25,660 bases of DNA, taken from contig MNYV01000086.1 in the NCBI GenBank assembly GCA_001873285.1, positions 1-25,660 on the forward strand, read 5' to 3'. Below are positions 1,101 through 25,660 of the stretch, piece by piece. The notes under the pieces were generated by a model that was not told the DNA's origin, made no database searches, and saw only the letters and a program-made list of their open reading frames with translations. Origin of the DNA: Nitrospirae bacterium CG2_30_53_67 (GTDB lineage: Bacteria > CG2-30-53-67). How positions within the stretch are numbered: position 1 is the stretch's first letter; every line of letters begins with the position of its first letter. The position numbers and the translations under genes are program-made.

Positions 1101-2318
1101 CTAATGGATCAGTTGGTTGATCTCGAAAATGGGCAGCAGGATGGAGATCACAATAAACCCCACGACCAGCGCCAATCCCACAATCATAAACGGCTCCAGC
1201 AATGAAGTCAGGGTGTTGACGGTCGTGTCGATCTCGTTGTCCGTGATATCCGCCACCTTGTTCAGCATCTCCTCGAGCGTGCCGCTTTTTTCTCCGACAT
1301 TGATCATATGGATCAGAATAGGCGGGAACACGCCGCTTCGTCTCAACGGTTCATGAATGGACGAGCCTTCCCCAATGTGTGTGCGGGCTTCCTCGATGGT
1401 CCTCTCCAGGAGTTTGTTTCCGACCACGTTTTTGACGATGTCGAGGGAGTTTAAGAGCGGGACGCCGTTCTTCAGGAGGGTCCCGAGGGTCCTTGAGAAC
1501 CTGGAAATGGCGATCTTGCGGTAAAGGGACCCGAAGATCGGCATCTTCAGTTTGAATTGGTCGAAATGAATCCTCCCTTCCTCGGTTTTAATATAGGCCT
1601 TGATCCCGGTGAAAGCGGCGGCAAAGAGGAGGAGGAAAAGCCACCAGTAGGACCGGATGAAACTGCTGATTGCGATCAGAACTGCCGTGGGGATCGGGAG
1701 GGTCTGCTTCATGTCGGAGAAAATTTTGGTTACGGAGGGCACCACATAGGTCATCAGAAAGAGAAGGATACAGAAGGCGATCGAGACAATGACCGCAGGA
1801 TAGATCAAGGCCGACTGGATCTTCCGTTTGGTCATGACCTGCTGTTCCAGGAAATCAGCCAGGCGAAGGAGGACGATTTCCAAGGACCCGCTGCTCTCAC
1901 CGGACCGGATCATATTGACCATGAGAGGGGAAAAGGCCCGGGTGTGAGGGGAGAGGCTGTCGGCAAAACTTCTTCCTTCCCGAACCGATTCACGGACCTG
2001 GGAAAGGATCCTCTCGAGACCCTTGTTGTCGATCTGGTCGATAACGGCTGAAAGCGCCTCCACAAGCGGGATGCCGGCATTCAGCAGGGTAGAGATCTGA
2101 CGGATAAGGATCGAGACCTCGATGGGACTGATGCGGGTAAAAAGGGTGATGCCTGCGGTCCGGTTTTTCCCCGGCATGGACAGCGTATCGGAGAGATCGG
2201 TGATGTAGACCTCTTGTTCACGCAGCTTCCCCCTGGCCTCCTGGGACGAGTCTGCATCCACGATTCCGGTGAGGGTCTTGCCTCTCTTGTCAAGGGCTTT
2301 GTATTCGTAAACCGGCAT
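1101..2318 (-). CDS. gspF: Type II secretion inner-membrane platform protein GspF
   Basis: At 405 residues this is the usual GspF length. It starts MPVYEYKALDKRGKTLTGIVDADS, the standard GspF opening, and has two T2SSF domains. The first (about 70-195) has LIRQISTLLNAGIPLVEALSA and ends in a membrane helix near 172-195; the second (about 275-400) repeats the pattern (ISRFSRTLGTLLKNGVPLLNSL) and ends in a membrane segment near 375-398. A third helix lies at about 213-235. GspF couples the GspE ATPase to pseudopilus assembly in the inner membrane. The start is 3 nt after the gspE stop, so the two are probably translated together. Confidence 0.97.
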   Translation of the reverse strand: MPVYEYKALDKRGKTLTGIVDADSSQEARGKLREQEVYITDLSDTLSMPGKNRTAGITLFTRISPIEVSILIRQISTLLNAGIPLVEALSAVIDQIDNKGLERILSQVRESVREGRSFADSLSPHTRAFSPLMVNMIRSGESSGSLEIVLLRLADFLEQQVMTKRKIQSALIYPAVIVSIAFCILLFLMTYVVPSVTKIFSDMKQTLPIPTAVLIAISSFIRSYWWLFLLLFAAAFTGIKAYIKTEEGRIHFDQFKLKMPIFGSLYRKIAISRFSRTLGTLLKNGVPLLNSLDIVKNVVGNKLLERTIEEARTHIGEGSSIHEPLRRSGVFPPILIHMINVGEKSGTLEEMLNKVADITDNEIDTTVNTLTSLLEPFMIVGLALVVGFIVISILLPIFEINQLIH

Positions 2319-2321
2319 AGT

Positions 2322-3866
2322 TTATTCTTGCGTCACGCGCAGGACCTCTTCGATGGTGGTGATGCCGCTTAGAACCTTGGCGGCGCCGTCCTGACGGAGC
2401 GTTCTCATTCCCTCCTGGACCGAGGCCGCTCTGATCATATTGGAATCGACATTCTGGAAAATCAGCTTATTGATCTTCTCCGTGCTCAAAAGCATCTCAT
2501 AAATTCCAGTCCGGCCGTGATAGCCGGTATGAAAACAGTAGTCGCATCCCTTGCCGTGATAAAAAACGGGATTTTTGAGCTGGGAGGGATCCAGCCCGAG
2601 CTCTTCAAGCTCGGCATGTGTGGGTTGGTGTGAAATCCTGCACTTGGGGCAGATGACCCGGACCAGGCGCTGTGCCAGAACGCCGAGCAGAGAAGAGGAG
2701 ACCAGGAACGGCTCGATCCCCATATCCACCAGCCGGGTCATGGCGCCGGCGGAGTCGTTGGTATGCAGGGTGGAGAAGACCAGATGGCCGGTCAGCGATG
2801 CCTGAATGGCGATCTCGGCCGTCTCCCGATCTCGTATTTCACCGATCATGATGACATCGGGGTCTTGGCGGAGGATGGATCGCAGCCCCCGTGCGAAGGT
2901 CAGCTCAATCTTGGGATTGACCTGCATCTGTCCGATTCCTTTGATCTGGTACTCGATGGGATCCTCAATGGTGAGAATGTTCTGGTCCGGGGAATTGATT
3001 TTGTTCAGGGCGGCGTAGAGCGTCGTGCTCTTTCCGCTTCCCGTGGGTCCCGTGACCAGGATAATGCCGTGGCTCTTACGGATCAGTTTGGAGATCTGAT
3101 GGTAGGTCTGATCGGGAAGTCCGATGTCCTCCAGGTCATAGATCGTGGCGTTCTTGTCCAGGAGCCGCAGCACCACCCGTTCGCCGAAGGCCGTAGGGAT
3201 GATGGAAACACGGATATCGACCTCCTTGTTGGCGATTTTGATTTTGATCCGTCCGTCATGTGGAAGCCGCTTTTCCGCGATATTCAGGTTGGCCATGATC
3301 TTGATCCTTGAGATCAGGGCGGAGAGGAAACGTCTGGGAGGCTGGAGTCTCTCGTAGAGGACGCCGTCGATCCGGTACCGGACCAGCATCTCCTTTTCAT
3401 AGGGTTCGATGTGGATGTCGCTGGCGCGGGATTCCACAGCCTGGTAGAGGATGAGGTTCATGAGCTTGATGATGGGCGCCTCGGTCTCGGCGTCCAGCAG
3501 GTCCTGGACTTCATCCAGTTCCTCGGCAATGGTTTCATATTCCTGACCGGCAAGATCATCGATCACACTCTCGGCCGTATCCGTGGCGCTTCCAAAGAAG
3601 AGGTTGATTTTCTGGTTGATCTGATTTTCCGAAGCCAGATAGGGCTCCACATTCTTCCGAAGCAGTTTCCCGAGGTCTTCCAGAGGGACGATGTTCGCCG
3701 GGTCGGAGACGGCCACACGGATCTCATGATCATCCTCAAAGAAAGGGAAGAGGACAAAGCGTTTGAGATAGCTGCGGGGGATCTTTTCCAGAGTCGCTTC
3801 GCTCAATTTCGGTTCCGGAATCTCCTGAAGAACAGGAATCCCGATGTTCAGGTGATCTGGGTTCAT
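2322..3866 (-). CDS. gspE: Type II secretion ATPase GspE
   Basis: This 514-residue protein is the cytoplasmic motor of the secretion system. An N-terminal T2SSE_N domain occupies about 1-95. The ATPase core has Walker A GPTGSGKS (273-280), an Asp box and Walker B (DPDVIMIGEIRD, 335-346) and a His box (GHLVFSTLHTNDS, 360-372). The zinc-binding tetracysteine of GspE/PilB ATPases is intact: C406xxC409 and C441xxC444. Its ATG overlaps the gspD stop by 4 bases (ATGA) and its stop is 3 bases before gspF, so the genes are tightly coupled. The linear order among other gsp genes makes GspE much more likely than a type IV pilus PilB. Confidence 0.97.
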   Translation of the reverse strand: MNPDHLNIGIPVLQEIPEPKLSEATLEKIPRSYLKRFVLFPFFEDDHEIRVAVSDPANIVPLEDLGKLLRKNVEPYLASENQINQKINLFFGSATDTAESVIDDLAGQEYETIAEELDEVQDLLDAETEAPIIKLMNLILYQAVESRASDIHIEPYEKEMLVRYRIDGVLYERLQPPRRFLSALISRIKIMANLNIAEKRLPHDGRIKIKIANKEVDIRVSIIPTAFGERVVLRLLDKNATIYDLEDIGLPDQTYHQISKLIRKSHGIILVTGPTGSGKSTTLYAALNKINSPDQNILTIEDPIEYQIKGIGQMQVNPKIELTFARGLRSILRQDPDVIMIGEIRDRETAEIAIQASLTGHLVFSTLHTNDSAGAMTRLVDMGIEPFLVSSSLLGVLAQRLVRVICPKCRISHQPTHAELEELGLDPSQLKNPVFYHGKGCDYCFHTGYHGRTGIYEMLLSTEKINKLIFQNVDSNMIRAASVQEGMRTLRQDGAAKVLSGITTIEEVLRVTQE

Positions 3867-6289
3867 GGTTGATCTTCCGTCCTGATGGGGGTCCCCGGCG
3901 CGCTGTTTTCATTCCCCTGACCGTCCTGAACCGAAGGATCCGGGGCCGGCGGATCCGGATTTTCCTTCAAGGTCTCATCGGGAAGGGCTTTTGGTCCGGT
4001 CGGATCTCCCTTGTCTTGCTCTTGTTTTTCCGGAGAACCGTAGAAATCGTATGAAGGCTGCTGAGCCTTATAGTCCTTGTTGGACTCAAAATCCTGTTGT
4101 TTCTTTTCAGAGAGTCTCGCCGCCTCCGTGGGATTGGTGACAATGTGCGGCGTCAGGAAGATCATCAGGTTCGTTTTGTTGTTTTTGTTCTGATTTGAGC
4201 TGAAGAGATATTTTAAAAACGGCAGATCACCCAAACAGGGAATTTTGGAATGGGTATCATTGATATCATCCTGGATGAGACCCCCGATGACGATAGTATG
4301 GCTGTCTTTGACCACGATGGTGGTCTTGGCGGACCGCTTGGTGGTCACCGGCGCCGTGGCCCCGGTCCCGGCCGTGGCTGCGGCATCCACATTGGAGACT
4401 TCCTGAGAGAGTTCAAGCCGGACGAAACGGTTCTGGCTGATATGGGGCGTGACCTTGAGCGTGACTCCCACGTCCTTGAACTCAAAGGTCTGAAACACAT
4501 CATTGACCCCTTGCTGCCCGGTTCGGGCCTGGGTCAGGAAGGGACGGTTCTCACCGACCTGGATCTCCGCCTCCTGGTTGTCCATGGTCAGGATCTGGGG
4601 GGTGGCGATGATGTTGGTGTCGGAACGGGTGGCCACGGCTGTGATCAGCGCCGAAATGGAAGGAAATTGGTGGCCGTTGAATGTAATAAAGTTTCCGAAG
4701 ACGCCCAGGTTGAATCCGGTGACGGATGAGGGGATCGTCCCTTCATTGAGGGATCCTATGGTGGGAAGGAGGGCGCCCTGAGGAAGCGATCCGCCGAAAC
4801 CCAGGCGGTCAATGGAGTCATCGGCGCCGATGCTCCCTCCAAAAGTTTCCCACTCCACACCGAGGTTGTAAGAATCGCTTCCGCGGACTTCCATGATCAG
4901 GGCCTCGATTAAGACCTGTGATCGAGGGATGTCCAGTTTTTCGATGACCGATTTGATCTGCTCATAATCTTCGGGATCGGCGTTGATGATCAGTGCGTTG
5001 GTGGCCTTGTCGGCAACGATCCTGATATCCGTCTGGGTCGGGATCTTCTCCGTCCCCTTATTGTCTTTGCCTTTTCCCGCCTTAATTCCGGAGACAAATT
5101 CATTCAGGACTGTAACGGCCTCCTCGGCCACGGCGTTCTGAAGATAATAGATGTTGACCCGCCCTTTTCCCTCGGGGGATGGCACATCCAGTCTCCGGAC
5201 AAGATTGACGATGCTTTCATAATCGTTTTTGGTAGCGAGGACGATCAGGGAGTTGGTCCGTTCGTCCGCAATGATCTTGATTTCGGACGAGACACCGGAG
5301 ACCGTGGTCGGTGCGGCGGACGGGGTCCCTCTCATCCTGACGCCGGGAGACGATCCTGAAGCGGCGGCGCTCCCTTGTCCGAGGATATCGTTTAAGTGCT
5401 CGGTTATGGTCTTGACCGAGGCATACTTGATGGGGATGACATAGAGTTCCGCATGGTATCCCTTGACATCCAGTTCGCCGATGATCTTCAGGATACGGTA
5501 AAGGTTGGAATTGAGATCGGTCATGATCAGCGTATTGGTCGGTTTGTAGGAGACCAGATAGCCGTCTTTCGAGAAGAGGGGCCGGATGAGGGCCGCCAGG
5601 TCATCGGCATTGACATATTCCAGCCGTGCGATCCGGGTAACGAATTCGTCCGTACGCTCTGAAAGAGAAGGGGCCTTTCCCACCACGGTCTCGATTCCTC
5701 TCTGTTTGGCTTCCGGGCTCGGGACGATCTTGATCACCTTATCAGCCGAGACTAGGGTGTATCCCCTGATCTCCAGGATGGATTCAAAAACCCTGTAGGC
5801 CTCATCCACAGTGATTTTTTCCGGAGAGACAACAGTGACCTTGCCTTTAACCGCTTCATCGATCAGGAAATTTTTATGCACCAGTTCACTGATGAACTTG
5901 ATCAAAACACGGATGTCCGCATCCTCAAAGTTCATGGTGATCAGTTCATCTTTCCGGGGCATAGGAGAAGATCCTTGCGGCGGAACTGCAGGGACCGCCC
6001 CTGGTGACGGATGGGATCCGGGTATGGGTACGGACGGCGGCTGTACAGCAGGTCCAGGTCCCGGCGTCCGTTGTGCCGCCGTGGGCGCCCCTATGTCCGG
6101 CGTGGATCCAGGGGGAGTTCCCTGGGCAGCCGGTACGGCAGGCGGTGTTCCCGGCATCCGCTGCGTTGCAGGGGGAGCCGCCGGCGAAACTTGTTGCGCC
6201 TGCTCTGCCGAGGCGTAAGAGAGGAGCATAAAGATAGATCCTGCCAGCAGGACCAGGCAAGAGAGATACATGGTTTGATGATTTTTCAT
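3863..6289 (-). CDS. gspD: Type II secretion outer-membrane secretin GspD
   Basis: This 808-residue secretin forms the outer-membrane exit channel. A Sec signal peptide (cleavage likely after Ala28, SYASA|EQ) is followed by an 80-residue Pro/Ala/Gly-rich stretch (32-111). Next come the N0 domain (from about 114, ITMNFEDADIRVLIKFI), N1-N3 repeats, and the secretin core ending in the signature VIGGLIQDDINDTHSKIPCLGDLPFLKYLF. Past the core (TNLMIFLTPHIV) is a tail of about 80 residues that is charged, then Pro/Asp-rich; this may be an S-domain-like or pilotin-interacting extension, but I see no clear S-domain. The low-complexity region before N0 is unusual compared with the classical GspD, where N0 follows the signal peptide closely. 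Confidence 0.96.
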   Translation of the reverse strand: MKNHQTMYLSCLVLLAGSIFMLLSYASAEQAQQVSPAAPPATQRMPGTPPAVPAAQGTPPGSTPDIGAPTAAQRTPGPGPAVQPPSVPIPGSHPSPGAVPAVPPQGSSPMPRKDELITMNFEDADIRVLIKFISELVHKNFLIDEAVKGKVTVVSPEKITVDEAYRVFESILEIRGYTLVSADKVIKIVPSPEAKQRGIETVVGKAPSLSERTDEFVTRIARLEYVNADDLAALIRPLFSKDGYLVSYKPTNTLIMTDLNSNLYRILKIIGELDVKGYHAELYVIPIKYASVKTITEHLNDILGQGSAAASGSSPGVRMRGTPSAAPTTVSGVSSEIKIIADERTNSLIVLATKNDYESIVNLVRRLDVPSPEGKGRVNIYYLQNAVAEEAVTVLNEFVSGIKAGKGKDNKGTEKIPTQTDIRIVADKATNALIINADPEDYEQIKSVIEKLDIPRSQVLIEALIMEVRGSDSYNLGVEWETFGGSIGADDSIDRLGFGGSLPQGALLPTIGSLNEGTIPSSVTGFNLGVFGNFITFNGHQFPSISALITAVATRSDTNIIATPQILTMDNQEAEIQVGENRPFLTQARTGQQGVNDVFQTFEFKDVGVTLKVTPHISQNRFVRLELSQEVSNVDAAATAGTGATAPVTTKRSAKTTIVVKDSHTIVIGGLIQDDINDTHSKIPCLGDLPFLKYLFSSNQNKNNKTNLMIFLTPHIVTNPTEAARLSEKKQQDFESNKDYKAQQPSYDFYGSPEKQEQDKGDPTGPKALPDETLKENPDPPAPDPSVQDGQGNENSAPGTPIRTEDQP

Positions 6290-6316
6290 TCTGCGCCCCC
6301 GAGTTCAAGATCGATG

Positions 6317-7150
6317 TTACTCGACCGTATAATTGATGGTCAGGACCTGGTTGTCCCTTTCCACCTCCAGGTTGAGTGTTTTGGCATCTGAGTACTTGTT
6401 GAAAATTTCAAAGATGTTTTTAAATTCCTCAGACGAGGTTCCGTTGATGGCCTTGATGATATCATTTTTTTGGAGGCCGAGCTCCGACAGGCGGCTCCCT
6501 TCACGAAGATAGGTCACCGTGAATCCGTCTCGTTTCCCTGAAGTAAAATGGGGGATGATCCTCACGTCCCTCATGAGAGATCTGAGGTCACTGGCCGCTT
6601 CCTGGATTTCCTGCCGCTGGATCCTCTGAGGGGGTTCGGCAAGGGCGGTGGGTCGGGATTCCCCTTTTTTATCCTGCTTGTCTTCCTGGAACATCAGCAG
6701 GAGTTCCTTGCGTCCGTTCCGGTTGATCACCACCCGATCCTCAAAAATGGCGCTTAAGGTGACGCCGCTTCCGATGTTGTCGTTGATATGATAAAGGTTC
6801 TGTGCTTTTAAATTGGTATCCTCAATGATGGCAAAGGAACGTTTCCTGTTGCTGACCACCGTGCCCTTTAGGGTTAATTTTAAATCCGTTTTGGGGTGAT
6901 CCAGGGAATCATCCGCGTTGTTCCCGGTTATCTGGGCGAAGGATGCCCCCTGGAACAGGTTCCGTTCAGTGATCTTGCCGTAAGCCGAAAAGGGTTTGGT
7001 CTCTTTTTTCAGGGAAAGCACGTTCTTGTTTGCGGCATCGTGTGGTTTCTCGACATATAGGTGACTGTTGATTATTTTCAAGGCGATATCGGCTGCAAAG
7101 AGGATGAATAAGGAGATCAAAATGATTTGAAAAACTCTCTTTTTATGCAT
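6317..7150 (-). CDS. gspC: Type II secretion protein GspC with C-terminal PDZ domain
   Basis: The 277-residue product has a short basic cytoplasmic start (MHKKR), one membrane helix (about 8-27) and a periplasmic homology region beginning SAYGKITERNLFQG. The HR region (KGTVV...FAIIEDTN..., then a RNGRKELL strand) binds secretin N0 in characterised systems. The C-terminal part (about 185-277) is a PDZ-type domain with GSRLSELGLQKNDIIKAINGT, which helps choose substrates. It is the first gene of the gsp operon and is divergent from the polysaccharide genes. The start is the ATG at 7150, preceded by TAAGG. GspC links the outer-membrane secretin with the inner-membrane platform. Confidence 0.93.
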   Translation of the reverse strand: MHKKRVFQIILISLFILFAADIALKIINSHLYVEKPHDAANKNVLSLKKETKPFSAYGKITERNLFQGASFAQITGNNADDSLDHPKTDLKLTLKGTVVSNRKRSFAIIEDTNLKAQNLYHINDNIGSGVTLSAIFEDRVVINRNGRKELLLMFQEDKQDKKGESRPTALAEPPQRIQRQEIQEAASDLRSLMRDVRIIPHFTSGKRDGFTVTYLREGSRLSELGLQKNDIIKAINGTSSEEFKNIFEIFNKYSDAKTLNLEVERDNQVLTINYTVE

Positions 7151-7185
7151 TTCATAAACCTTAGAGGTTGTCTAAACCATTTATT

Positions 7186-7212
7186 TTTATAATAATTTAC
7201 ACATTTTGTCAA
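7186..7212 (-). promoter_or_regulatory. Putative sigma70-type promoter of the gsp operon
   Basis: On the minus strand TTGACA (7212-7207) is followed after 15 bases by TATAAA (7191-7186). The -35 is perfect and the spacer is slightly short. It points toward gspC, whose ATG is about 36 bases beyond the -10. Prediction from sequence only. Confidence 0.45.
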
Positions 7213-7227
7213 GAAAATTGGACTCCA

Positions 7228-7285
7228 TTTTAATATAGCGGGAACTCCCCGCCTATAAAGGCGGGGAGTTCCCGCTATATTAAAA
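7228..7285. repeat. Perfect 26-bp inverted repeat (hairpin/cruciform) between the divergent operons
   Basis: The left arm 7228-7253 and right arm 7260-7285 are exact reverse complements over 26 bases, separated by TATAAA; the outer T-A of the loop can pair too, leaving a 4-base loop. The inner half of each arm is GC-rich (GCGGGAACTCCCCGCC) and the outer part is AT-rich. Neither orientation has a clear T-tract directly after a GC stem, although the arm edge is TTTT or AAAA. It could act as a bidirectional terminator or insulator, a protein-binding palindrome, or a small mobile palindrome. The within-arm GGGAACTCCC is itself nearly palindromic. Confidence 0.9.
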
Positions 7286-7292
7286 GACTCTT

Positions 7293-7364
7293 GTACCGAA
7301 TGTATGATAAATGCCAAAAAAACCGATACATTTTTCTTGACTGGTACCGGTTGTATGATAAAAT
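7293..7364 (+). repeat. Pair of 20-bp direct repeats 51 bp apart upstream of the polysaccharide operon
   Basis: Copy A (7293-7312) and copy B (7344-7363) both read GTACCGnnTGTATGATAAA, with 17 of 20 positions identical. Copy B overlaps the putative -35/-10 promoter of the plus-strand operon. The 51-base period is close to five helical turns, so a DNA-binding regulator could occupy both sites on one face. Confidence 0.65.
7337..7364 (+). promoter_or_regulatory. Putative sigma70-type promoter of the polysaccharide operon
   Basis: TTGACT (7337-7342), a 16-base spacer and TAAAAT (7359-7364) face the gene starting at 7426. Direct repeat copy B lies inside it, so a repressor binding there would block polymerase. 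Confidence 0.45.
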
Positions 7365-7425
7365 TTAATAGTAAATACAGTAAATTATCATTCTCTCAGA
7401 ATAGATAAAAAACAGGGAGAAATCT

Positions 7426-9960
7426 ATGTTAGATCGTCGATACTTGATCCTGGCCTCGGTTGTCTTCATTCTTTTTCCGGGTTGTTCTCATCTCCATCCG
7501 GAGGTCATGACCCTATCCGATTTTACCTGGTCCGTTGAAACCGGACCGGTCAATGCCGGACAGTATCGGGCTGTAACCGCCGCCGATCTGAACCAGGACG
7601 GCTTTCCGGATTTAATTGCCGGTTCGTTCAATCCGGGAGGGGTGACGATCTGGACGGGAGACGGGAAAGGAAAGTGGCGTCTGGCCAGGAAACCTCCGGT
7701 CAACGGGGATGTCCGCTCCATTGCCGTCTGTGATATCAACGGGGACGGGAACCAGGATCTGGCGGTCGTGGGCCAGAGAGATCTTAAAGGGGTGATGGTC
7801 CTCTTGCAGGGAGCGGACGGGTCCTGGAAACAAGGGAACTCGCCTGTGGAGACCGGAAGCTACGAGAGCGTGAAGTGTCTGGATGTCAATAAGGATGGGA
7901 ATCCGGACATCGTCGCAGCCAACAGTTCCGGAGACCAGGAAGGGGGCATCCAGGTCTGGTTCGGCGACGGCAAAGGGGAATGGATCCAGCAGGCCGGGCC
8001 GGATGCAGCCCACATCTATCGGGATGCGGCTCTGACCGATATCAACGGCGATGGGAACCTGGATATCATCGCCACGTCCTGGGGGCGCCCCGGGGGAATT
8101 CATATCTATCTGGGAAGCGGTGACGGCGCCTGGTCCACATTCCCGAGTCCGGCCAAGGAAGGGGACTTCTGGGGGGTGGCGGTCGCGGATCTGAACCATG
8201 ACGGATGGATGGACATCGCGGCCACAACCTACTATCAGGGGATCAAAATCTGGACCGGCAACGGCAAAGGAGACTGGCAGGACGTGACCTTTCCGGTGAA
8301 CCGCGGATTTTACTGGTCTATCCTGGTCTCGGATTTCAACAAGGACGGAAGGATGGATATCGCCGCGAGCTCGGTGGACTCCGGCGGGGTCAGGGTCTGG
8401 TTTGGAGGAAAGGTCGGGGGGTGGCTCTCCATGGGAAAAGGGCTCCCGGAGTCCGGGAGTTTTTATGGGCTTACGGCCTCAGATCTGGATGGGGACGGGG
8501 TCCATGATCTGATCGCGGCCAGCTATAGTGAAGGCGTGCAGATCTGGTTTGGAGGACATGGAGAAAAACGGGCCGTCAAGGAGATCCAGGCCGTTCCTTC
8601 GGGCAGGGAAGCGAAAGAGGCGTCCAATCCTTTTCTGACGCGTTTTGCGGTTCCGTTTGAGCCCAATGGGGAGGATCTGTCCAAGGCTGCCCAGGTTGTG
8701 ATTGCGGAAATCGTGAAGACATTGCAGAGCTCATCTTATGAGACGATCCGTATAGAAGGTCATGCGGACCGTCTTGAGAAACCCGAGGGACAGGGGTCCC
8801 TGATGGCGCTTTCGGAGGCGCGGGCGGAAAAGGTGAAAAAGATATTGGACGAGAGCCTTCAGATCGAACCCGGCAGGATATCCGTAACCGGTTTTGCCGA
8901 CAGCCGGCCTGCCGAGGAATCCGTGTCCGGCGCCGGATCCGGGAACTCCGTGGTGGAGATCATCATCTCCCATCAGGCGGGCGTGGACGGGCATCCGGCG
9001 CCCAGTGAAGCAGAAAAGAAACAGCAGGATGAGTTCATCAAGAGTCAATTCCTGACTGAATACAAGGTCGGACCGGGGGACATCCTCAAGGTCGTTTTCT
9101 GGAAACAGTTCAGCGCCGATGAGTATGAAGTGCTGATCCGGCCGGATGGGACCCTATCGTTGTTCATGGTGGATGACCTTTCTGCCGGAGGATTGACCCT
9201 CACCGAACTGGATCGTCTGTTGACGGAGAAGTTGAGCCGTTATTTCAAGAATCCGAGGATTGATATTACGATTAAAGAGTTTCACAGCCAGGAGGTGATG
9301 ATTCTGGGGGCCGTCAATTCCCTGGTACGGCAGCCTACCGGGCCTGGGGTTTATGTTTTAAAGAAACCGACAAAGATTGTTGAACTGCTGACCATTGCAG
9401 GGGGACCCCTTCCCACGGCCAACCTGAAAAAGGTGACGGTAACCCGGAAGAACGGGACCACCCTTTCGGTCAATCTCTATAAGGCGATTTTCCAAGCCAA
9501 CGCCTCGGAGGATATCCCGATCTATCCTGGGGATTCGATTTTTATCCCCGAAACCTCAGAAGGGATGAGCAAGGTTTATGTCTTCGGCGAGGTCAAGAAT
9601 CCAGGCATCTATGATCTCAAAGAGGGGATGAGCGTCCTGGATGCAGTGGGCAGGGCCGGAAGTTTTACCGAGGATGCCGTGGTCCAGAGCACGCACTTAA
9701 TCCGCGGAGATCTCTCCAGGCCTGAAGTCATCCCCGTGGATGTCAAACGGTTCTTTCAGAAGGGCGATCTTTCCGCCAACCTGGTCCTGCAGAATAACGA
9801 TATCATCTATGTTCCCAAAAACAGGATTGCAAGCGTTTCTTATCTCCTGACGAAAATCAAGCCCATGCTCGATTTCGTCCTTTTCCCGTATCAGTTTGAG
9901 TCGATGCGCACCACCATCGACCTGAACAAGGAGAATGTCAGGCCGCTGACGACGCCGTAA
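7426..9960 (+). CDS. Wza-like polysaccharide export lipoprotein fused to an FG-GAP/VCBS propeller and an OmpA-like domain
   Basis: 844 residues, more than twice a typical Wza. A lipoprotein signal ends FPG|C20, so the chain is probably lipid-anchored. Residues about 45-390 carry seven FG-GAP/VCBS repeats with calcium-type motifs DxNxDGxxD (first D at about 54, 103, 153, 205, 255, 303, 354), enough for one seven-bladed propeller. Residues about 405-520 resemble an OmpA C-terminal peptidoglycan-binding domain (IRIEGHAD, LSEARAEKVKKIL), though the usual NRRVEI is GNSVVEI. From about 545 comes the polysaccharide export domain (YKVGPGDILKVVFWK, RPDGTLSLFMV), then two SLBB domains (from about 622 and 715, VYVFGEVKNPGIYDLKEG). 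An AGGGAGA ribosome site precedes the ATG. It heads the plus-strand operon and should form the outer-membrane exit for the polymer. Confidence 0.9.
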   Translation: MLDRRYLILASVVFILFPGCSHLHPEVMTLSDFTWSVETGPVNAGQYRAVTAADLNQDGFPDLIAGSFNPGGVTIWTGDGKGKWRLARKPPVNGDVRSIAVCDINGDGNQDLAVVGQRDLKGVMVLLQGADGSWKQGNSPVETGSYESVKCLDVNKDGNPDIVAANSSGDQEGGIQVWFGDGKGEWIQQAGPDAAHIYRDAALTDINGDGNLDIIATSWGRPGGIHIYLGSGDGAWSTFPSPAKEGDFWGVAVADLNHDGWMDIAATTYYQGIKIWTGNGKGDWQDVTFPVNRGFYWSILVSDFNKDGRMDIAASSVDSGGVRVWFGGKVGGWLSMGKGLPESGSFYGLTASDLDGDGVHDLIAASYSEGVQIWFGGHGEKRAVKEIQAVPSGREAKEASNPFLTRFAVPFEPNGEDLSKAAQVVIAEIVKTLQSSSYETIRIEGHADRLEKPEGQGSLMALSEARAEKVKKILDESLQIEPGRISVTGFADSRPAEESVSGAGSGNSVVEIIISHQAGVDGHPAPSEAEKKQQDEFIKSQFLTEYKVGPGDILKVVFWKQFSADEYEVLIRPDGTLSLFMVDDLSAGGLTLTELDRLLTEKLSRYFKNPRIDITIKEFHSQEVMILGAVNSLVRQPTGPGVYVLKKPTKIVELLTIAGGPLPTANLKKVTVTRKNGTTLSVNLYKAIFQANASEDIPIYPGDSIFIPETSEGMSKVYVFGEVKNPGIYDLKEGMSVLDAVGRAGSFTEDAVVQSTHLIRGDLSRPEVIPVDVKRFFQKGDLSANLVLQNNDIIYVPKNRIASVSYLLTKIKPMLDFVLFPYQFESMRTTIDLNKENVRPLTTP

Positions 9961-21036: not shown

Positions 21037-21862
21037 TCACTGCGGTCACGATGATACAAGGCTGGTCCAGCAGGTTGACGATACCTATCGGGTCGTTCAG
21101 TGCCGTAGCTGTGGTTTGGTCTATACGAACCCCATCCCCGACCTTCACTCTCTTTGCGACCATTACGGTGAAAACTATTACCGTGATTGGATCGAGAAGC
21201 AATCGCGCGCCAGAGAAAGGATGTGGAGAAAAAGGATCAGGGAGGTGATGAGACATAAACAGGGCGGCCGGTTACTGGACGTGGGCTGCGGTCTCGAAAC
21301 GTTCTTGATGCTGGCGAAAGGGCAGGGATTTCAGGTCCAGGGCACGGAGGTATCCTCTTTTATCACGTCTCAAGGGCGTGAAGACGAACCTCCGGATATA
21401 TTTCGAGGGGAACTTCCGGAAGCTCAATTCCCGGATAAGCGCTTTGACGTCATCACCCTGTGGCACAGTTTGGAGCACATGCCGGATCCAAAGAGGAACC
21501 TGATGGAAGTCCATCGCATCATGAAAGACGACGGGTTATTGGTGATTGCCGTGCCCAACCTGAAAAACTATTTTACGCGGTTTTTTTACCGCCTTTACAA
21601 GAGAAAAAAGTTCTCCCTGTTTGATCCCGGGGCCAAGGAACTTCACCTGTTTCATTTTACGCCGATCAGCTTGCCCGCCATGCTGCATTCCGTCGGATTT
21701 TGCGTGGAGCAGTTGCGGCTGGATTTGTCCGCCGTGGTATTCCAGCGGAAAATCATCGACTGGATCAGCGGACTCGTCTATGCCGCGACCCGCGCCAACT
21801 TTGCCGATGGATTTAAAATATTTGCAAGGAAGTCCGGTCACACCGCACAAAAAGCCCAATGA
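21017..21862 (+). CDS. Zinc-ribbon SAM-dependent methyltransferase
   Basis: About 281 residues. An N-terminal zinc-ribbon (CNHCGHDD... then VVQCRSCGLVYTNPIP, two CxxC pairs) precedes a class I methyltransferase domain of the Methyltransf_23 group: LLDVGCGLETFLMLAKGQGF (motif I, slightly altered from VGCGxGxFL), FDVITLWHSLEHMPDP (motif II with the His common in this group), and LKDDGLLVIAVPN-like text. Such proteins usually methylate a sugar or other small group in polysaccharide or natural-product clusters. The start at 21017 overlaps the preceding glycosyltransferase end by 20 bases; an upstream ATG at 20951 reads unrelated antisense-like sequence. The stop TGA forms ATGA with the start of a mini-ORF. 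Confidence 0.87.
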   Translation: MIYVKCNHCGHDDTRLVQQVDDTYRVVQCRSCGLVYTNPIPDLHSLCDHYGENYYRDWIEKQSRARERMWRKRIREVMRHKQGGRLLDVGCGLETFLMLAKGQGFQVQGTEVSSFITSQGREDEPPDIFRGELPEAQFPDKRFDVITLWHSLEHMPDPKRNLMEVHRIMKDDGLLVIAVPNLKNYFTRFFYRLYKRKKFSLFDPGAKELHLFHFTPISLPAMLHSVGFCVEQLRLDLSAVVFQRKIIDWISGLVYAATRANFADGFKIFARKSGHTAQKAQ

Positions 21863-21909
21863 AAAAAACCAGGATGGGCTTGTATGTGAAGGGATGGCTT
21901 CGGGAATGA
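21859..21909 (+). CDS. 16-residue mini-ORF linking the methyltransferase and GT9 genes (coupling?)
   Basis: ATG at 21859 overlaps the methyltransferase stop as ATGA (21859-21862), and its own TGA (21907-21909) overlaps the ATG of the next gene at 21906 as ATGA. It encodes MKKTRMGLYVKGWLRE. Two ATGA junctions in a 51-base frame look like a relay for translational coupling rather than a functional peptide. It could be coincidence, since ATGA overlaps are common; homologue comparison would decide. Confidence 0.3.
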   Translation: MKKTRMGLYVKGWLRE

Positions 21910-23063
21910 AATCACTGCTTAAAACTCGTCAGGTTCTGAAACGTCTCTTCGTGTTCATGAGAACGGTTTTTCTTCTAAGCGCGGGGCGTTTTGTTGTTCC
22001 CAGGAAAAGGAGCGGGATTCCGTCAAAACCCGTCAAGATCCTTGTGATCTCCCAGACGCGCCTGGGAGATGCTGTGCTGTCCGTTCCCCTCCTGACGGTT
22101 CTTCACGACCGATTCCCCTCAGCGCAGATTCATGTGCTTGCAAATCGGTATATACGGGAAGTCTATGAGATGTGCCCGCACACCACCGGGATCATGGAGT
22201 TGGAGAGCGTTTTCGGGCCCTTGGACTGGGCGCATGACATCAGACGAATCCGAAGGGAGAAGTTCGATTGGGTTATAGATCTGAATACGGACGGATCTTT
22301 GATGCCGGCGGTTGCGGCCGGGTACTCAGCCGCGCCATGCAGAATCGGTTATGGACAGGATGGACGGCGTATCTTCTTTGACGCCGCGCTCCCTTTTCCC
22401 AAGGAAGGGCGGCATATGGTGGATCTGATTCTGGGTACTCTGGCGCCCCTCGGACTTTCCAGGGACCGGCCCGGTTTTGATCTGGTGATCCCTAAGGCGG
22501 AAGAGAGAGATACAGCCGCTATGCTGGAGCGGATCGGCGTGAAACGCGGCCGCCCGGTTGTCGGGATTCATCCCGGTGGAGTCCATCCAACCCAGCGCTG
22601 GCCTGCGGAGAATTTTGCTGATCTTTCCGACCTTATCCTCCGAAGCGGAGAAGCTCAGGTTCTCTTGCTTGGAGGGCCGAAGGATCAGATTCTGCTTTCG
22701 GAAATCGTCAACCGGATGCAAGGCGCGCCGATTCAATTCCCTCCCGTGACCCGTATCAAAGGTCTTGCAGCGCTCTTGAACAATCTGAATCTGTTGGTGT
22801 GTAATAATTCCGGCCCTCTTCATTTGGCCTCGGCTCTTTCTATCCCGACGATTTCATTTATGGGGCCCACGCGGGCCGAACAGTGGCGGCCTGTAGGAGA
22901 AGGGAATACAGTCCTCCGAAGGGATGACCTCGATTGTATCGGGTGTAATATGGGAATATGTCCGGTTAAAACGCATGCATGCATGTACGGAATCTCGCCG
23001 ACAGAGGTATTTGAGACCATCCGGAATCGTCTGGCGCAAGACTCCAAGATCTTGTCTTCATAA
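21906..23063 (+). CDS. GT9 heptosyltransferase-like glycosyltransferase
   Basis: About 385 residues, typical for ADP-heptose:LPS heptosyltransferase relatives. The N-terminal motif is KILVISQTRLGDAVLSVPLL, the GT9 signature; the donor-binding half has VVGIHPGGVHPTQRWPAENFADL, VLLLGGPKDQILLSEIV, LLVCNNSGPLHLASAL and ISFMGPTRAEQWRPVGEG. A C-terminal cluster of Cys (CIGCNMGICPVKTHAC) may bind metal. I start at the ATG at 21906, with AAGGGATGG 8 bases upstream; 21894 is an alternative 4 codons longer. It is the last gene of the plus-strand operon and its 3' end overlaps the nucleotidyltransferase relic on the other strand by about 19 bases. The substrate is unknown. Confidence 0.9.
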   Translation: MKSLLKTRQVLKRLFVFMRTVFLLSAGRFVVPRKRSGIPSKPVKILVISQTRLGDAVLSVPLLTVLHDRFPSAQIHVLANRYIREVYEMCPHTTGIMELESVFGPLDWAHDIRRIRREKFDWVIDLNTDGSLMPAVAAGYSAAPCRIGYGQDGRRIFFDAALPFPKEGRHMVDLILGTLAPLGLSRDRPGFDLVIPKAEERDTAAMLERIGVKRGRPVVGIHPGGVHPTQRWPAENFADLSDLILRSGEAQVLLLGGPKDQILLSEIVNRMQGAPIQFPPVTRIKGLAALLNNLNLLVCNNSGPLHLASALSIPTISFMGPTRAEQWRPVGEGNTVLRRDDLDCIGCNMGICPVKTHACMYGISPTEVFETIRNRLAQDSKILSS

Positions 23064-23275
23064 TAGTGCCGGCTGAGGAAGTTCATTTCTTCGTATTCCT
23101 TGAAGGCGCGGATGCAGAAGGAAATGAACTCTCCTTTTTCCCGCTCGAAAAGAACCCTGCCGTTCTGGGCGACCTCATACCGTAAGGCTGAGGAGACGCT
23201 GTTCAGACAGACGACGTCCAACCGGTCTACGACAAGCAGATGAATCTCCGGGCGGGATATCCCGTAAAAACAAAG
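23045..23275 (-). pseudogene. C-terminal relic of a minimal nucleotidyltransferase (MNT-like)
   Basis: After the PqqD-like stop, another frame encodes ISRPEIHLLVVDRLDVV, CLNSVSSALRYEVAQNG, RVLFERE and a tail ending RHYYEDKIL. This matches the C-terminal part of small MNT-type nucleotidyltransferases (VDVVxLNxASxxLRxEVxxxGxxLYER...YY). The catalytic GSxxxxxDxD half is absent upstream; the frame instead joins the end of the PqqD gene. It has no stop codon near the domain end and runs into the antisense of the GT9 gene. I read it as a truncated remnant. It may once have belonged to the peptide operon or been a HEPN/MNT toxin pair component. The 23064-23282 gap holds nothing else I can support. 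Confidence 0.55.
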
Positions 23276-23282
23276 CTGGGGA

Positions 23283-23564
23283 TCAATCGGAGGAAAGCAC
23301 CAGAAGTTTTTTCTCAACGAGGTCCCGGATCAGGTCCAGGGCCTGTTTCCGGATAACGGCCGGGTCTCCCTCAAACTCCTGAGGAAGAAGAGAGAGGATT
23401 TCTCCCAACGGCACGTCTTCATTGCAGAGATCCCAGATCCGGGCGCCGGTCTCGTTCAAGAGGTAAGGTTCCCCGTTTTCTTCATCAAACAGGACGGTAT
23501 TCCCGTCCTCTTCTCTCCAGAGCACGTTGGATGGGATGCTCGGTTTGCGATGGTCCGTTGTCAT
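23283..23564 (-). CDS. PqqD-like RiPP leader-recognition protein
   Basis: 93 residues. The PqqD signature is clear: GNTVLFDEENGEPYLLNETGARIWDLC, then EILSLLPQEF and a C-terminal helix QALDLIRDLVEKKLLVL. PqqD-family proteins bind the leader of a precursor peptide and deliver it to a radical SAM maturase (RiPP recognition element). It has a ribosome site AGGGTGA before ATG 23564 and lies 26 bases after the precursor-like gene, so it is probably co-transcribed with it. The neighbouring radical SAM protein has no N-terminal recognition domain of its own, which fits a separate PqqD partner. Confidence 0.88.
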   Translation of the reverse strand: MTTDHRKPSIPSNVLWREEDGNTVLFDEENGEPYLLNETGARIWDLCNEDVPLGEILSLLPQEFEGDPAVIRKQALDLIRDLVEKKLLVLSSD

Positions 23565-23590
23565 ATATCACCCTTATATTGAGGGATGAA

Positions 23591-23770
23591 TTAACTGAAT
23601 ACTGTGTTCTTGGTGGACTGACTGCAAGAGACCGAGCCTGTCGGGATATTATTCTTGCCGCAGACGATTCCCCGTTCGAGGCCCGTGGTGCAGAAATAGT
23701 TTCCCACACCTTGAACCGAGATGGATGTGAGTTCGGGTTTTATCCATGGTTTTTTCGGTTTTGTTGCCAT
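23591..23770 (-). CDS. Putative RiPP precursor peptide, 59 residues
   Basis: The ATG at 23770-23768 has AAGGAG at 23779-23784, overlapping the stop of the radical SAM gene, and TAA at 23593-23591. The peptide opens MATKPKKPWIKPELTSISVQ and continues GVGNYFCTTG..., with Cys27, Cys37 and Cys49 and a Ser/Thr-rich tail ending VFS. The basic leader with W9-x-x-P12-x-L14 resembles the leader motif YxxPxL that recognition elements bind in lasso peptide systems. The core would be the C-terminal 30-38 residues, with three Cys spaced 10 and 12 apart and no transmembrane segment. Position between the maturase and the PqqD gene, a strong ribosome site and a Cys-bearing core support a modified-peptide precursor. 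I do not recognise a named family. Confidence 0.78.
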   Translation of the reverse strand: MATKPKKPWIKPELTSISVQGVGNYFCTTGLERGIVCGKNNIPTGSVSCSQSTKNTVFS

Positions 23771-23778
23771 ATTTTATA

Positions 23779-23784
23779 CTCCTT
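23779..23784 (-). promoter_or_regulatory. Ribosome binding site of the precursor peptide gene
   Basis: AAGGAG on the minus strand, 8 nt before ATG 23770. Its first bases are shared with the TAA stop of the radical SAM gene (23785-23783). The strength of this site suggests the peptide is made in larger amounts than the enzymes around it. Confidence 0.8.
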
Positions 23785-24790
23785 ACTTTGTTTGAGAAAG
23801 CCTTACACAGGGGGCATATTCCCCCCAGACATCGTCGGTGCGGAGATAGGCCTCGGCCCTGCAGCCGCCTTTACATTCATGCAGGGATTCACAGCCGCGG
23901 CACCGGCCGTGAAGGTTTTCCACCTGCAGGAACTGGGCATAAAGCGGGATCTGCTCCCAGGCCCCCTGTATCCCGTATTCCAGGACATTGTTTGAGAGCC
24001 CCCAGACGTGGGCCGGGGTGCAGGGGGTCATGTTCCCGTCCGGCATGATCAGGCAGGTGGAGGCGGTTTCGCTCCCCACGGTGCAGGTGCTGGGCCTTCC
24101 GATCTCATTAAAGAAGAGGGTATGGTTCCTGAAAGAAACCTTCACGCCCATCTCATTCAATGACCGGATACTGTCCATGGCCTCACGAAGTTCTTTTTCA
24201 AGGGGCCGTAAGGATTCGTAATTCAAAAAGCCGCGGCCTGTCGGTGTCATCTCGGAGGCATTGATCAGGGAGGGTTCGAAGGGGAGAAGCTTATGGACCA
24301 GCCGGGAGAGGTCATGGATATTCTCCCGGGTGATGGTCACCTTGATATGCAGGTCAAGACCCGCATCGTGGATCCAGCCGAGGGCCTTGATGATCCGATC
24401 AAAGGCATGCCCACCCATGATGGCGTCGTTGATCTCCGGTCTGGAGCCGTGCAGGCTCACCTGAATCCGGTTCAGACCATAGTCTTTAAGGCCCTGAACC
24501 GTTGCCGGGTCCAGTAAAATTCCGTTGGTGGTCAGGACCGTGAAGATTCCGTTCTCGCGGAGACGTCCGACATAATCCAATGTTTCGGGGATCAGGAGGG
24601 GCTCCCCGCCGGTGAGGTAGACCTTCAGGACCCGGCATTGGATCAGGTCTTCGAGAATGAGGGCCCGTTTTTCGGCATCCAGTTCATGGTCTCGGATCTC
24701 GAGATCCGATTCGCTGAGGCAGAAATTGCACGCCATGTTGCACCGGTCCGTGAGACACCAGAAGACTTCAACGGGGGTTTTTAAGAGCAT
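23783..24790 (-). CDS. Radical SAM/SPASM peptide maturase
   Basis: 335 residues. The radical SAM motif is C17xxxC21xxC24 (CNMACNFC), with GGEP at 61-64 and a downstream TIM-barrel region (NRIQVSLHGS). The C-terminal SPASM domain fits the published pattern of C-x(9-15)-G-x4-C, gap, C-x2-C-x5-C-x3-C, gap, C: C236, G252, C257, C297, C300, C306, C310, C328. SPASM domains bind two auxiliary iron-sulphur clusters and act on peptides (PqqE, AlbA, anSME). The protein starts 3 bases after the kinase stop (TGACCCATG) and its stop overlaps the precursor's ribosome site. It probably installs a crosslink, epimerisation or thioether on the neighbouring 59-residue peptide. Confidence 0.93.
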   Translation of the reverse strand: MLLKTPVEVFWCLTDRCNMACNFCLSESDLEIRDHELDAEKRALILEDLIQCRVLKVYLTGGEPLLIPETLDYVGRLRENGIFTVLTTNGILLDPATVQGLKDYGLNRIQVSLHGSRPEINDAIMGGHAFDRIIKALGWIHDAGLDLHIKVTITRENIHDLSRLVHKLLPFEPSLINASEMTPTGRGFLNYESLRPLEKELREAMDSIRSLNEMGVKVSFRNHTLFFNEIGRPSTCTVGSETASTCLIMPDGNMTPCTPAHVWGLSNNVLEYGIQGAWEQIPLYAQFLQVENLHGRCRGCESLHECKGGCRAEAYLRTDDVWGEYAPCVRLSQTK

Positions 24791-24793
24791 GGG

Positions 24794-25660
24794 TCAGCCT
24801 GTCTTTAAAATGTCCAAAATGATGCCGGGCAAAACGGGAAAATCCCTTATAATATTATATTTTAACCGGGTTATGGCTATGCTGTCAATGATCGATTTTG
24901 AGACGTCAAAAGCGGCCCGGTTATGGCGGATCAGGTCTTCCCGGGCCGTATCCGGAGACTCCTGAATCTTGGCTGCTTCCAGGGAGGCGAGCAGGGAGAA
25001 AAAGGCCTCAGCCTTATCCATTTTATCAGCATAAATGGATAAGTGGTTGATATTGTTGTCTAAAAATATCACTTTTTTTAATGGGGCACTTTCCGGAAAC
25101 GGTTCTCTAAGGTCGATCCGGAAAACTTCTTCATCCATGCTTTGCACCAAGGTCTTTTCATGGGCCATCAGGCCGAGTTCCGGATGGAGATTCATCACGT
25201 CCCGGGTGATCCGGATCCTGCGGGGGTAGGGAAGGATCTGGAACGACCCGTTGCTTTCCATACGGATGAAGCTGTCCTCTTCGGAGAGATAGCTGAATCC
25301 GTATTTCGTCAGGAGGCAGGAAAGGGAGGTCTTGCCTGAGTTGGTCTTGCCGAGGAGAAGGAGACCCCTCCCATCCTTGTAAAGGGATGCCCCGTGAAAC
25401 ACTGCCAGGTCTCCCATAAGAGAGAGTTCCAAGTGGACCAGGAAGCCGGTGACCCCGAAGAGGATGACCGCAACCGCATCCGCCGGGCACGAGCCGCTGA
25501 TATAGAGATGGACGGTCCGGTTAGGGATGTTCAGCACGGAGACGGTATCTTTGCGGATCCAGTGGATTTCGTCTCCGGGATCTCTCCGAAGCGTCTTGAG
25601 CGGTGTTTTGTCCTCATCGAGGTCTTGTTTTTGTGTCAGGGAGAGACGGATCCGGGGAGA
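24794..25660 (-). CDS. HPr kinase-like (HprK-related) protein, partial at right edge
   Basis: The frame is open from the right edge (25660) to the stop at 24794: 288 codons, with the true start outside. It has a P-loop GKTNSGKTS (bases 25325-25351), preceded by LAVFHGASLYKDGRGLLLL and followed by GFSYLSEEDSFIRM and ILPYPRRIRI. That order is typical of HprK-related kinases found beside PqqD proteins and radical SAM enzymes, not of true HprK of the sugar phosphotransferase system. In paeninodin biosynthesis such a kinase phosphorylates the C-terminal serine of the precursor, and the precursor here ends in Ser. A GTG at 25537 is possible as a start, but the upstream frame (RIRLSLTQKQDLDEDKTPLK) continues and looks coding. 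Confidence 0.8.
   Translation of the reverse strand, partial: SPRIRLSLTQKQDLDEDKTPLKTLRRDPGDEIHWIRKDTVSVLNIPNRTVHLYISGSCPADAVAVILFGVTGFLVHLELSLMGDLAVFHGASLYKDGRGLLLLGKTNSGKTSLSCLLTKYGFSYLSEEDSFIRMESNGSFQILPYPRRIRITRDVMNLHPELGLMAHEKTLVQSMDEEVFRIDLREPFPESAPLKKVIFLDNNINHLSIYADKMDKAEAFFSLLASLEAAKIQESPDTAREDLIRHNRAAFDVSKSIIDSIAITRLKYNIIRDFPVLPGIILDILKTG

Follow-up and report, generated by a model that had tools for sequence, protein, structure and literature searches.

The 25,660-nucleotide stretch analysed here (the window) is the entire contig MNYV01000086.1 (C86) of the uncultured Nitrospirae bacterium CG2_30_53_67 (GCA_001873285.1; a fragmented assembly of 2.36 Mb in 183 contigs, 95% complete), and four minus-strand genes in its last 2.4 kb form an operon for what appears to be a ribosomally synthesized and post-translationally modified peptide (RiPP). 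With a probability of about 0.6, we read this operon as the enzymes that tailor phosphorylated lasso peptides (PqqD/B1, B2, kinase and nucleotidyltransferase) grouped around a radical S-adenosylmethionine (SAM) enzyme that replaces the lasso cyclase. The predicted product is a Cys-containing core modified by the radical SAM enzyme, whose C-terminal Ser carries a phosphate and perhaps also a sugar. The operon genes are as follows.

24794-25660, minus strand: predicted HprK/PEPCK-fold peptide kinase, open at the contig end (25660), with about 43 5' codons beyond the contig
23783-24790, minus strand: radical SAM/SPASM peptide maturase of 335 residues, assigned from family matches and Cys motifs
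23591-23770, minus strand: precursor peptide of 59 residues, a conserved frame with leader KPWIKPEL, C27/C37/C49 and Phe58-Ser59
23283-23564, minus strand: PqqD-family leader-binding protein (RiPP recognition element, lasso B1-like), PF05402 match 3.4e-15

An earlier reading of the bare sequence (the original prediction) had described a RiPP-like operon with a precursor between the maturase and a PqqD protein and with minus-strand genes spaced 3, 12 and 26 bases apart. The gene coordinates reproduce these gaps, the gene order is observed directly and the arrangement recurs in related operons, and a kinase gene and a radical SAM gene adjoin a single peptide gene in the window as in its relatives.

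The 59-residue precursor frame is a real gene. A profile built from eight precursor sequences and searched over 386 genomes matched exactly eight of them (E ≤ 6e-12), each time in single copy and always adjoining an operon-type radical SAM gene; these are all six genomes of the family plus two of another phylum. As these eight also supplied the profile, their scores are unsurprising and the result lies in the single copies and in the lack of further genomes, the next-best matches having E-values of 0.002 and worse and an internal stop. The search across genomes that the original prediction had proposed thus returned only genomes with this operon, and the frame, whose lack of conservation in related operons it had named as evidence against itself, is kept in both phyla. 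The window precursor is 52-58% identical to those of the first three relatives, and the nonsynonymous rate (dN) is below the synonymous rate (dS) in all precursor pairs (0.13 versus 1.33 for L035/L037; L and G numbers denote loci and genomes of our survey). Invariant in all eight are the Trp and Pro of a WxxPx[LI] leader motif, two Cys and a C-terminal Phe-Ser, and the terminal Ser is the sole hydroxyl residue that they have in common. The number of Cys is three in six precursors and two in those of the second phylum, which also have an N-terminal MKRREFL stretch; the core between leader and tail varies strongly among genera apart from the conserved Cys. Small open reading frames (ORFs) at L067 6614-6817 and L126 1394-1603 have a Tat-like (K/R)RE(F/I) start that runs into an aromatic-xxP motif, and the same start is seen at L100 5573-5875, L110 5738-5914 and L113 9210-9380; these ORFs lie near HprK-like kinase genes, except that of L126, which is within a PqqD-radical SAM operon.

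The operons of the relatives carry these genes in varying company. The Hainich groundwater bin H32-bin143 (L004, the same record as G001 and counted once) has, in order, NTP_transf_5 (PF14907, 1.8e-51; the family to which we take the lasso-cluster protein PsmN to belong), kinase, radical SAM enzyme, precursor and PqqD, without B2. In G004 (L035) the order is a CPBP intramembrane protease, NTP_transf_5, kinase, radical SAM enzyme, precursor, PqqD and a B2-like transglutaminase-fold peptidase; in G002 (L037, where the locus is cut) it is radical SAM enzyme, precursor, PqqD and B2-like; and in G005 (L063) it is CPBP, kinase, PqqD, radical SAM enzyme, precursor and B2-like. The G003 operon is split over two contigs, one ending in CPBP and kinase and the other beginning with the radical SAM tail, precursor and B2-like gene. 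In the other phylum, G049 (L067) has NTP, kinase, PqqD, radical SAM enzyme and precursor, and G326 (L126) has PqqD, radical SAM enzyme and precursor at the contig start.

Two relatives (L004/G001 and G004) have NTP_transf_5 directly 5' of the kinase gene, so that a copy in the window would be expected past the end of the contig. G003 and G005 carry their NTP gene at a separate locus (L069 and L068, respectively), where it neighbours an AsnB gene within a cluster of glycosyltransferases. The B2-like peptidase is found in five of the six family genomes and keeps Cys128, His160 and Asp175, with hidden Markov model (HMM) matches to Transglut_core of at best 3.8e-4 and 1.2e-4; B2-like profiles gave no match against the PDB or against the annotated lasso B2 of Deinococcus psychrotolerans (L120, NZ_CP034185.1). 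The latter locus (1708-8179) encodes an NTP_transf_5-like region fused to the lasso B2 domain in one protein, with PqqD, HprK-like and ExeM/NucH endonuclease genes nearby. In the window's own genome, contig C118 ends with a CPBP and a B2-like gene; we tried to join C118 to C86, and the two have no common end sequence, so that adjacency is unproven. Three genera have CPBP genes that adjoin genes of the operon (L066 (G000:C118) 3510-4208, L035 5600-6259, L063 11210-11869 and L064 6823-7482), and the own-genome copy matches a myxosortase core model at 120 bits (cut-off 100).

The maturase matches Radical_SAM at 1.1e-27, with SPASM under its cut-off. As originally predicted, it has both the CxxxCxxC motif (residues 17-24) and the full set of SPASM Cys (C246, C257, C297, C300, C306, C310 and C328), all invariant in the closest relatives. 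The five full-length operon enzymes group in one clade (100/100 support) that excludes the ScmE/ScmF-like enzymes of the window's own genome as well as a second kinase-linked clade (also 100/100). The members of that second clade (L102, L103, L104, L105, L106, L108 and L109) are single radical SAM enzymes encoded next to an HprK-like kinase, in most cases with PqqD, and L104 and L105 have candidate precursors with YSKPTV and FIEPKL leaders and Ala/Gly-rich cores without Cys; across the survey, HprK-like kinases adjoining single radical SAM and PqqD genes are fairly common. The presumed partner of the operon enzyme, the PqqD protein, had likewise been recognised correctly in the original prediction, and matches lasso_PqqD_Bac at 2.9e-9, under the cut-off.

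HMM matches of the window kinase are weak (HprK_rel_A 3.2e-6, ScmC 5.4e-4, far under the cut-offs), yet the fold suggested by its earlier description as HprK-like is borne out by the model of an orthologue. An AlphaFold2 model of the full-length L004 protein (20 sequences; pLDDT, the predicted local distance difference test, 91.9) matched PEPCK over its full length (Z 19.3, 284 residues, 3.4 Å), and PEPCK topped both the Foldseek and the VIA-align lists; HPr kinase (3tqf) was matched weakly by sequence profile only (1e-3), and a structural match to HprK is still possible. PEPCK and HPr kinase have a common fold. In L004 numbering the motifs are H132, Walker A G147-T154 and E170-E171, the last where lasso kinases have Asp-Asp; His132 and the Walker Lys153 are invariant in 20 homologues, as in lasso kinases. 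The kinase is thus predicted to have the PEPCK/HprK superfamily fold with its His and Walker Lys.

In characterised lasso systems, the C-terminal Ser of the precursor is phosphorylated by the kinases PadeK, ThcoK and PsmK, and the nucleotidyltransferase homologue PsmN adds hexoses to that phosphoserine (PMC9266682). The bsf lasso cluster comprises a precursor (A) with a YxxPxL leader, B1, B2, C, D, K and N, and its B1 speeds phosphorylation and helps leader removal (PMC10368454). The operons studied here have counterparts of A, B1 and K and partly of N and B2, yet no match to the Asn synthetase-like family PF00733 was found on any operon contig of the eight genomes (the window's own operon being cut by the contig end), and we therefore read the system as a RiPP of the radical SAM type equipped with the phospholasso tailoring genes. 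PqqD would bind the WxxPx[LI] leader and present the precursor to both enzymes. The radical SAM/SPASM enzyme may crosslink the core or modify it at C-H positions in some other way, with the conserved Cys as the most likely participants, and the HprK-fold kinase, by analogy with PadeK, ThcoK and PsmK, would phosphorylate the invariant C-terminal Ser. Where present, the NTP_transf_5 protein might extend the phosphoserine, perhaps by a hexose as in the case of PsmN, and the B2-like Cys peptidase would cut off the leader.

Several observations weigh against this reading. The acidic pair of the kinase is Glu-Glu in the window's clade and Asp-Glu in G003, G005 and G049 (as in other NTP-linked kinases of the survey), in contrast to the Asp-Asp that is essential in characterised lasso kinases (PMC10368454), and kinase activity is therefore not assured. 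BsfK phosphorylates an internal residue, Ser3 (PMC10368454), so a site predicted by analogy can be wrong. A full-length NTP_transf_5 was not found in the window's own genome, the own-genome B2-like gene is on a separate contig, and G001 is without any B2. The B2 assignment itself is weak, with a predicted structure too poor for fold comparison. Finally, the second-phylum precursors keep only two of the three Cys, and the target residue of the radical SAM enzyme is assigned by inference.

More tentatively, the operon may represent a novel subclass of RiPPs: a single peptide would receive a radical SAM/SPASM crosslink or other modification and, at its C-terminal Ser, a phosphate that is then sugar-modified by a lasso-type kinase/nucleotidyltransferase pair, with one PqqD guiding both. 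We found no paper on a radical SAM enzyme with an HprK-type kinase in one architecture, a weak negative given the limited literature coverage. If the reading is right, the lasso kinase and nucleotidyltransferase would form a module that can be transferred to unrelated RiPPs to modify their C-terminus, and a single PqqD could serve radical SAM and phosphate chemistry alike. The invariant C-terminal Phe-Ser permits a single-residue test, and the 59-residue substrate is small enough for direct reconstitution.

Two further features lie to the left of the operon.

23045-23260, minus strand: decayed MntA antitoxin, C-terminal half, outside the operon (NF047752 match)
21621-23063, plus strand: convergent heptosyltransferase-like gene, named by eye, with an ORF start that is probably too early

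The convergent gene marks the downstream boundary of the operon, in the same arrangement as in L004. A component of the original prediction that did not hold is the nucleotidyltransferase ("MNT") relic, which we excluded as an operon member: it is an unrelated decayed MntA, and the operon nucleotidyltransferase of the relatives is NTP_transf_5, 5' of the kinase. The match of the relic frame (22820-23317) is confined to positions 54-103 of the 106 in the MntA profile (NF047752, 1.1e-8), the region has stops in its other frames, and it is 68% identical at the DNA level to a region of the intact MntA at G000:C164, where an intact MntA-HepT pair is located (L002 1299-2134). Since PqqD and the convergent glycosyltransferase gene of L004 are just about 127 bases apart, with no relic counterpart, the relic in the window is a local accident. 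Elsewhere in the window (1101-7150), there are genes that by eye resemble type II secretion components (GspF, GspE, GspD and GspC), with a polysaccharide cluster further on.

The nearest of the named systems, SynChlorMet (ScmC/ScmD/ScmE/ScmF, NCBIfam), likewise combines an HprK-like protein (ScmC), a PqqD-like protein (ScmD) and radical SAM/SPASM enzymes with a short peptide. The original prediction had recognised no named class with this set of genes; it thereby overlooked SynChlorMet, although the operon misses the SynChlorMet cut-offs and has one radical SAM enzyme rather than two. An alternative that we consider unlikely, but take seriously, is that the operon is a one-enzyme offshoot of the SynChlorMet cassette, unrelated to lasso tailoring, whose HprK-like protein may not be a C-terminal Ser kinase; the weak ScmC matches of the window kinase and of the L035 kinase (1.8e-4) are in its favour. 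However, the window radical SAM enzyme scores 84.6/79.3 bits against ScmE/ScmF (cut-offs 400), the kinase 19.4 bits against ScmC, within a range of 17-21 bits (cut-off 125), and PqqD 23.2 bits against ScmD (cut-off 100). Moreover, a SynChlorMet-like cassette occurs separately in this genome (L070, G000:C96, 6829-10851), with a double PqqD, ScmF-like (298 bits) and ScmE-like (237 bits) radical SAM enzymes and an HprK-like gene, followed by a Cys-rich small ORF, the putative precursor, with a YEPPKV motif and the ending NPV; no NTP_transf_5 or B2-like gene was seen in that cassette, and its putative precursor ends in Val.

The named families nearest to the maturase are PqqE (1.6e-42) and mycofactocin MftC (3.3e-37), which also work with a PqqD-type partner, and the closest solved structure is that of PqqE. 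These likenesses, together with an invariant C-terminal Phe-Ser next to a strongly variable core, would suit a PqqE/MftC-like enzyme that makes a small redox cofactor from the peptide, with the kinase acting on an intermediate or being regulatory. We hold this to be less likely still: both matches are far under the equivalog cut-offs, the precursor is different, no further cofactor-pathway genes were seen in the operons examined, and the cores diverge so greatly between genera that they resemble a variable natural product more than a universal cofactor.

The HPr-rel-A system (TIGR04352/TIGR04353) also pairs an HprK-related kinase with a PqqD-family protein, and its cut-offs are missed (HprK_rel_A 26.4 versus 200 bits, PqqD_rel_X 26.2 versus 35 bits). 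Sactipeptides and ranthipeptides are defined by Cys-to-carbon thioethers made by radical SAM enzymes; what the operon peptide shows in this respect is conserved Cys only. In another genome (G232, L074 1980-8549), small ORFs (34-46 residues, YxxPtL leaders) accompany genes for a Mur-ligase-like protein, PqqD, a possible B2-like protein, a radical SAM enzyme, an HprK-like kinase and NTP_transf_5, and no Asn synthetase was seen in this cluster, which possibly has another cyclase replacement.

That the operon is a defective lasso cluster, with its cyclase elsewhere and the radical SAM enzyme an accessory, would account for the genes that recall bsf (PqqD, B2-like, kinase and NTP) and for the YxxPxL-like leader, but is very improbable, as Asn_synthase genes exist in these genomes with none on an operon-bearing contig, those beside NTP in G003 and G005 look by eye like ordinary glutamine-type AsnB, and the cores have no common Gly plus Asp/Glu ring pattern. 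With the phosphorylated lasso clusters (paeninodin, pseudomycoidin and bsf) the operons share a discrete PqqD/B1, a putative B2-type peptidase, an HprK-like kinase and a nucleotidyltransferase, a similar though not identical aromatic-xxPx[LI] leader, in which Trp replaces the Tyr of the lasso YxxPxL and Leu or Ile comes last, and a C-terminal Ser as in paeninodin and pseudomycoidin; they differ in having a radical SAM/SPASM enzyme instead of a lasso cyclase, and a Cys-containing core. Lasso-type tailoring genes appear to be paired here with a different core enzyme, a combination that we found described nowhere in the literature covered.

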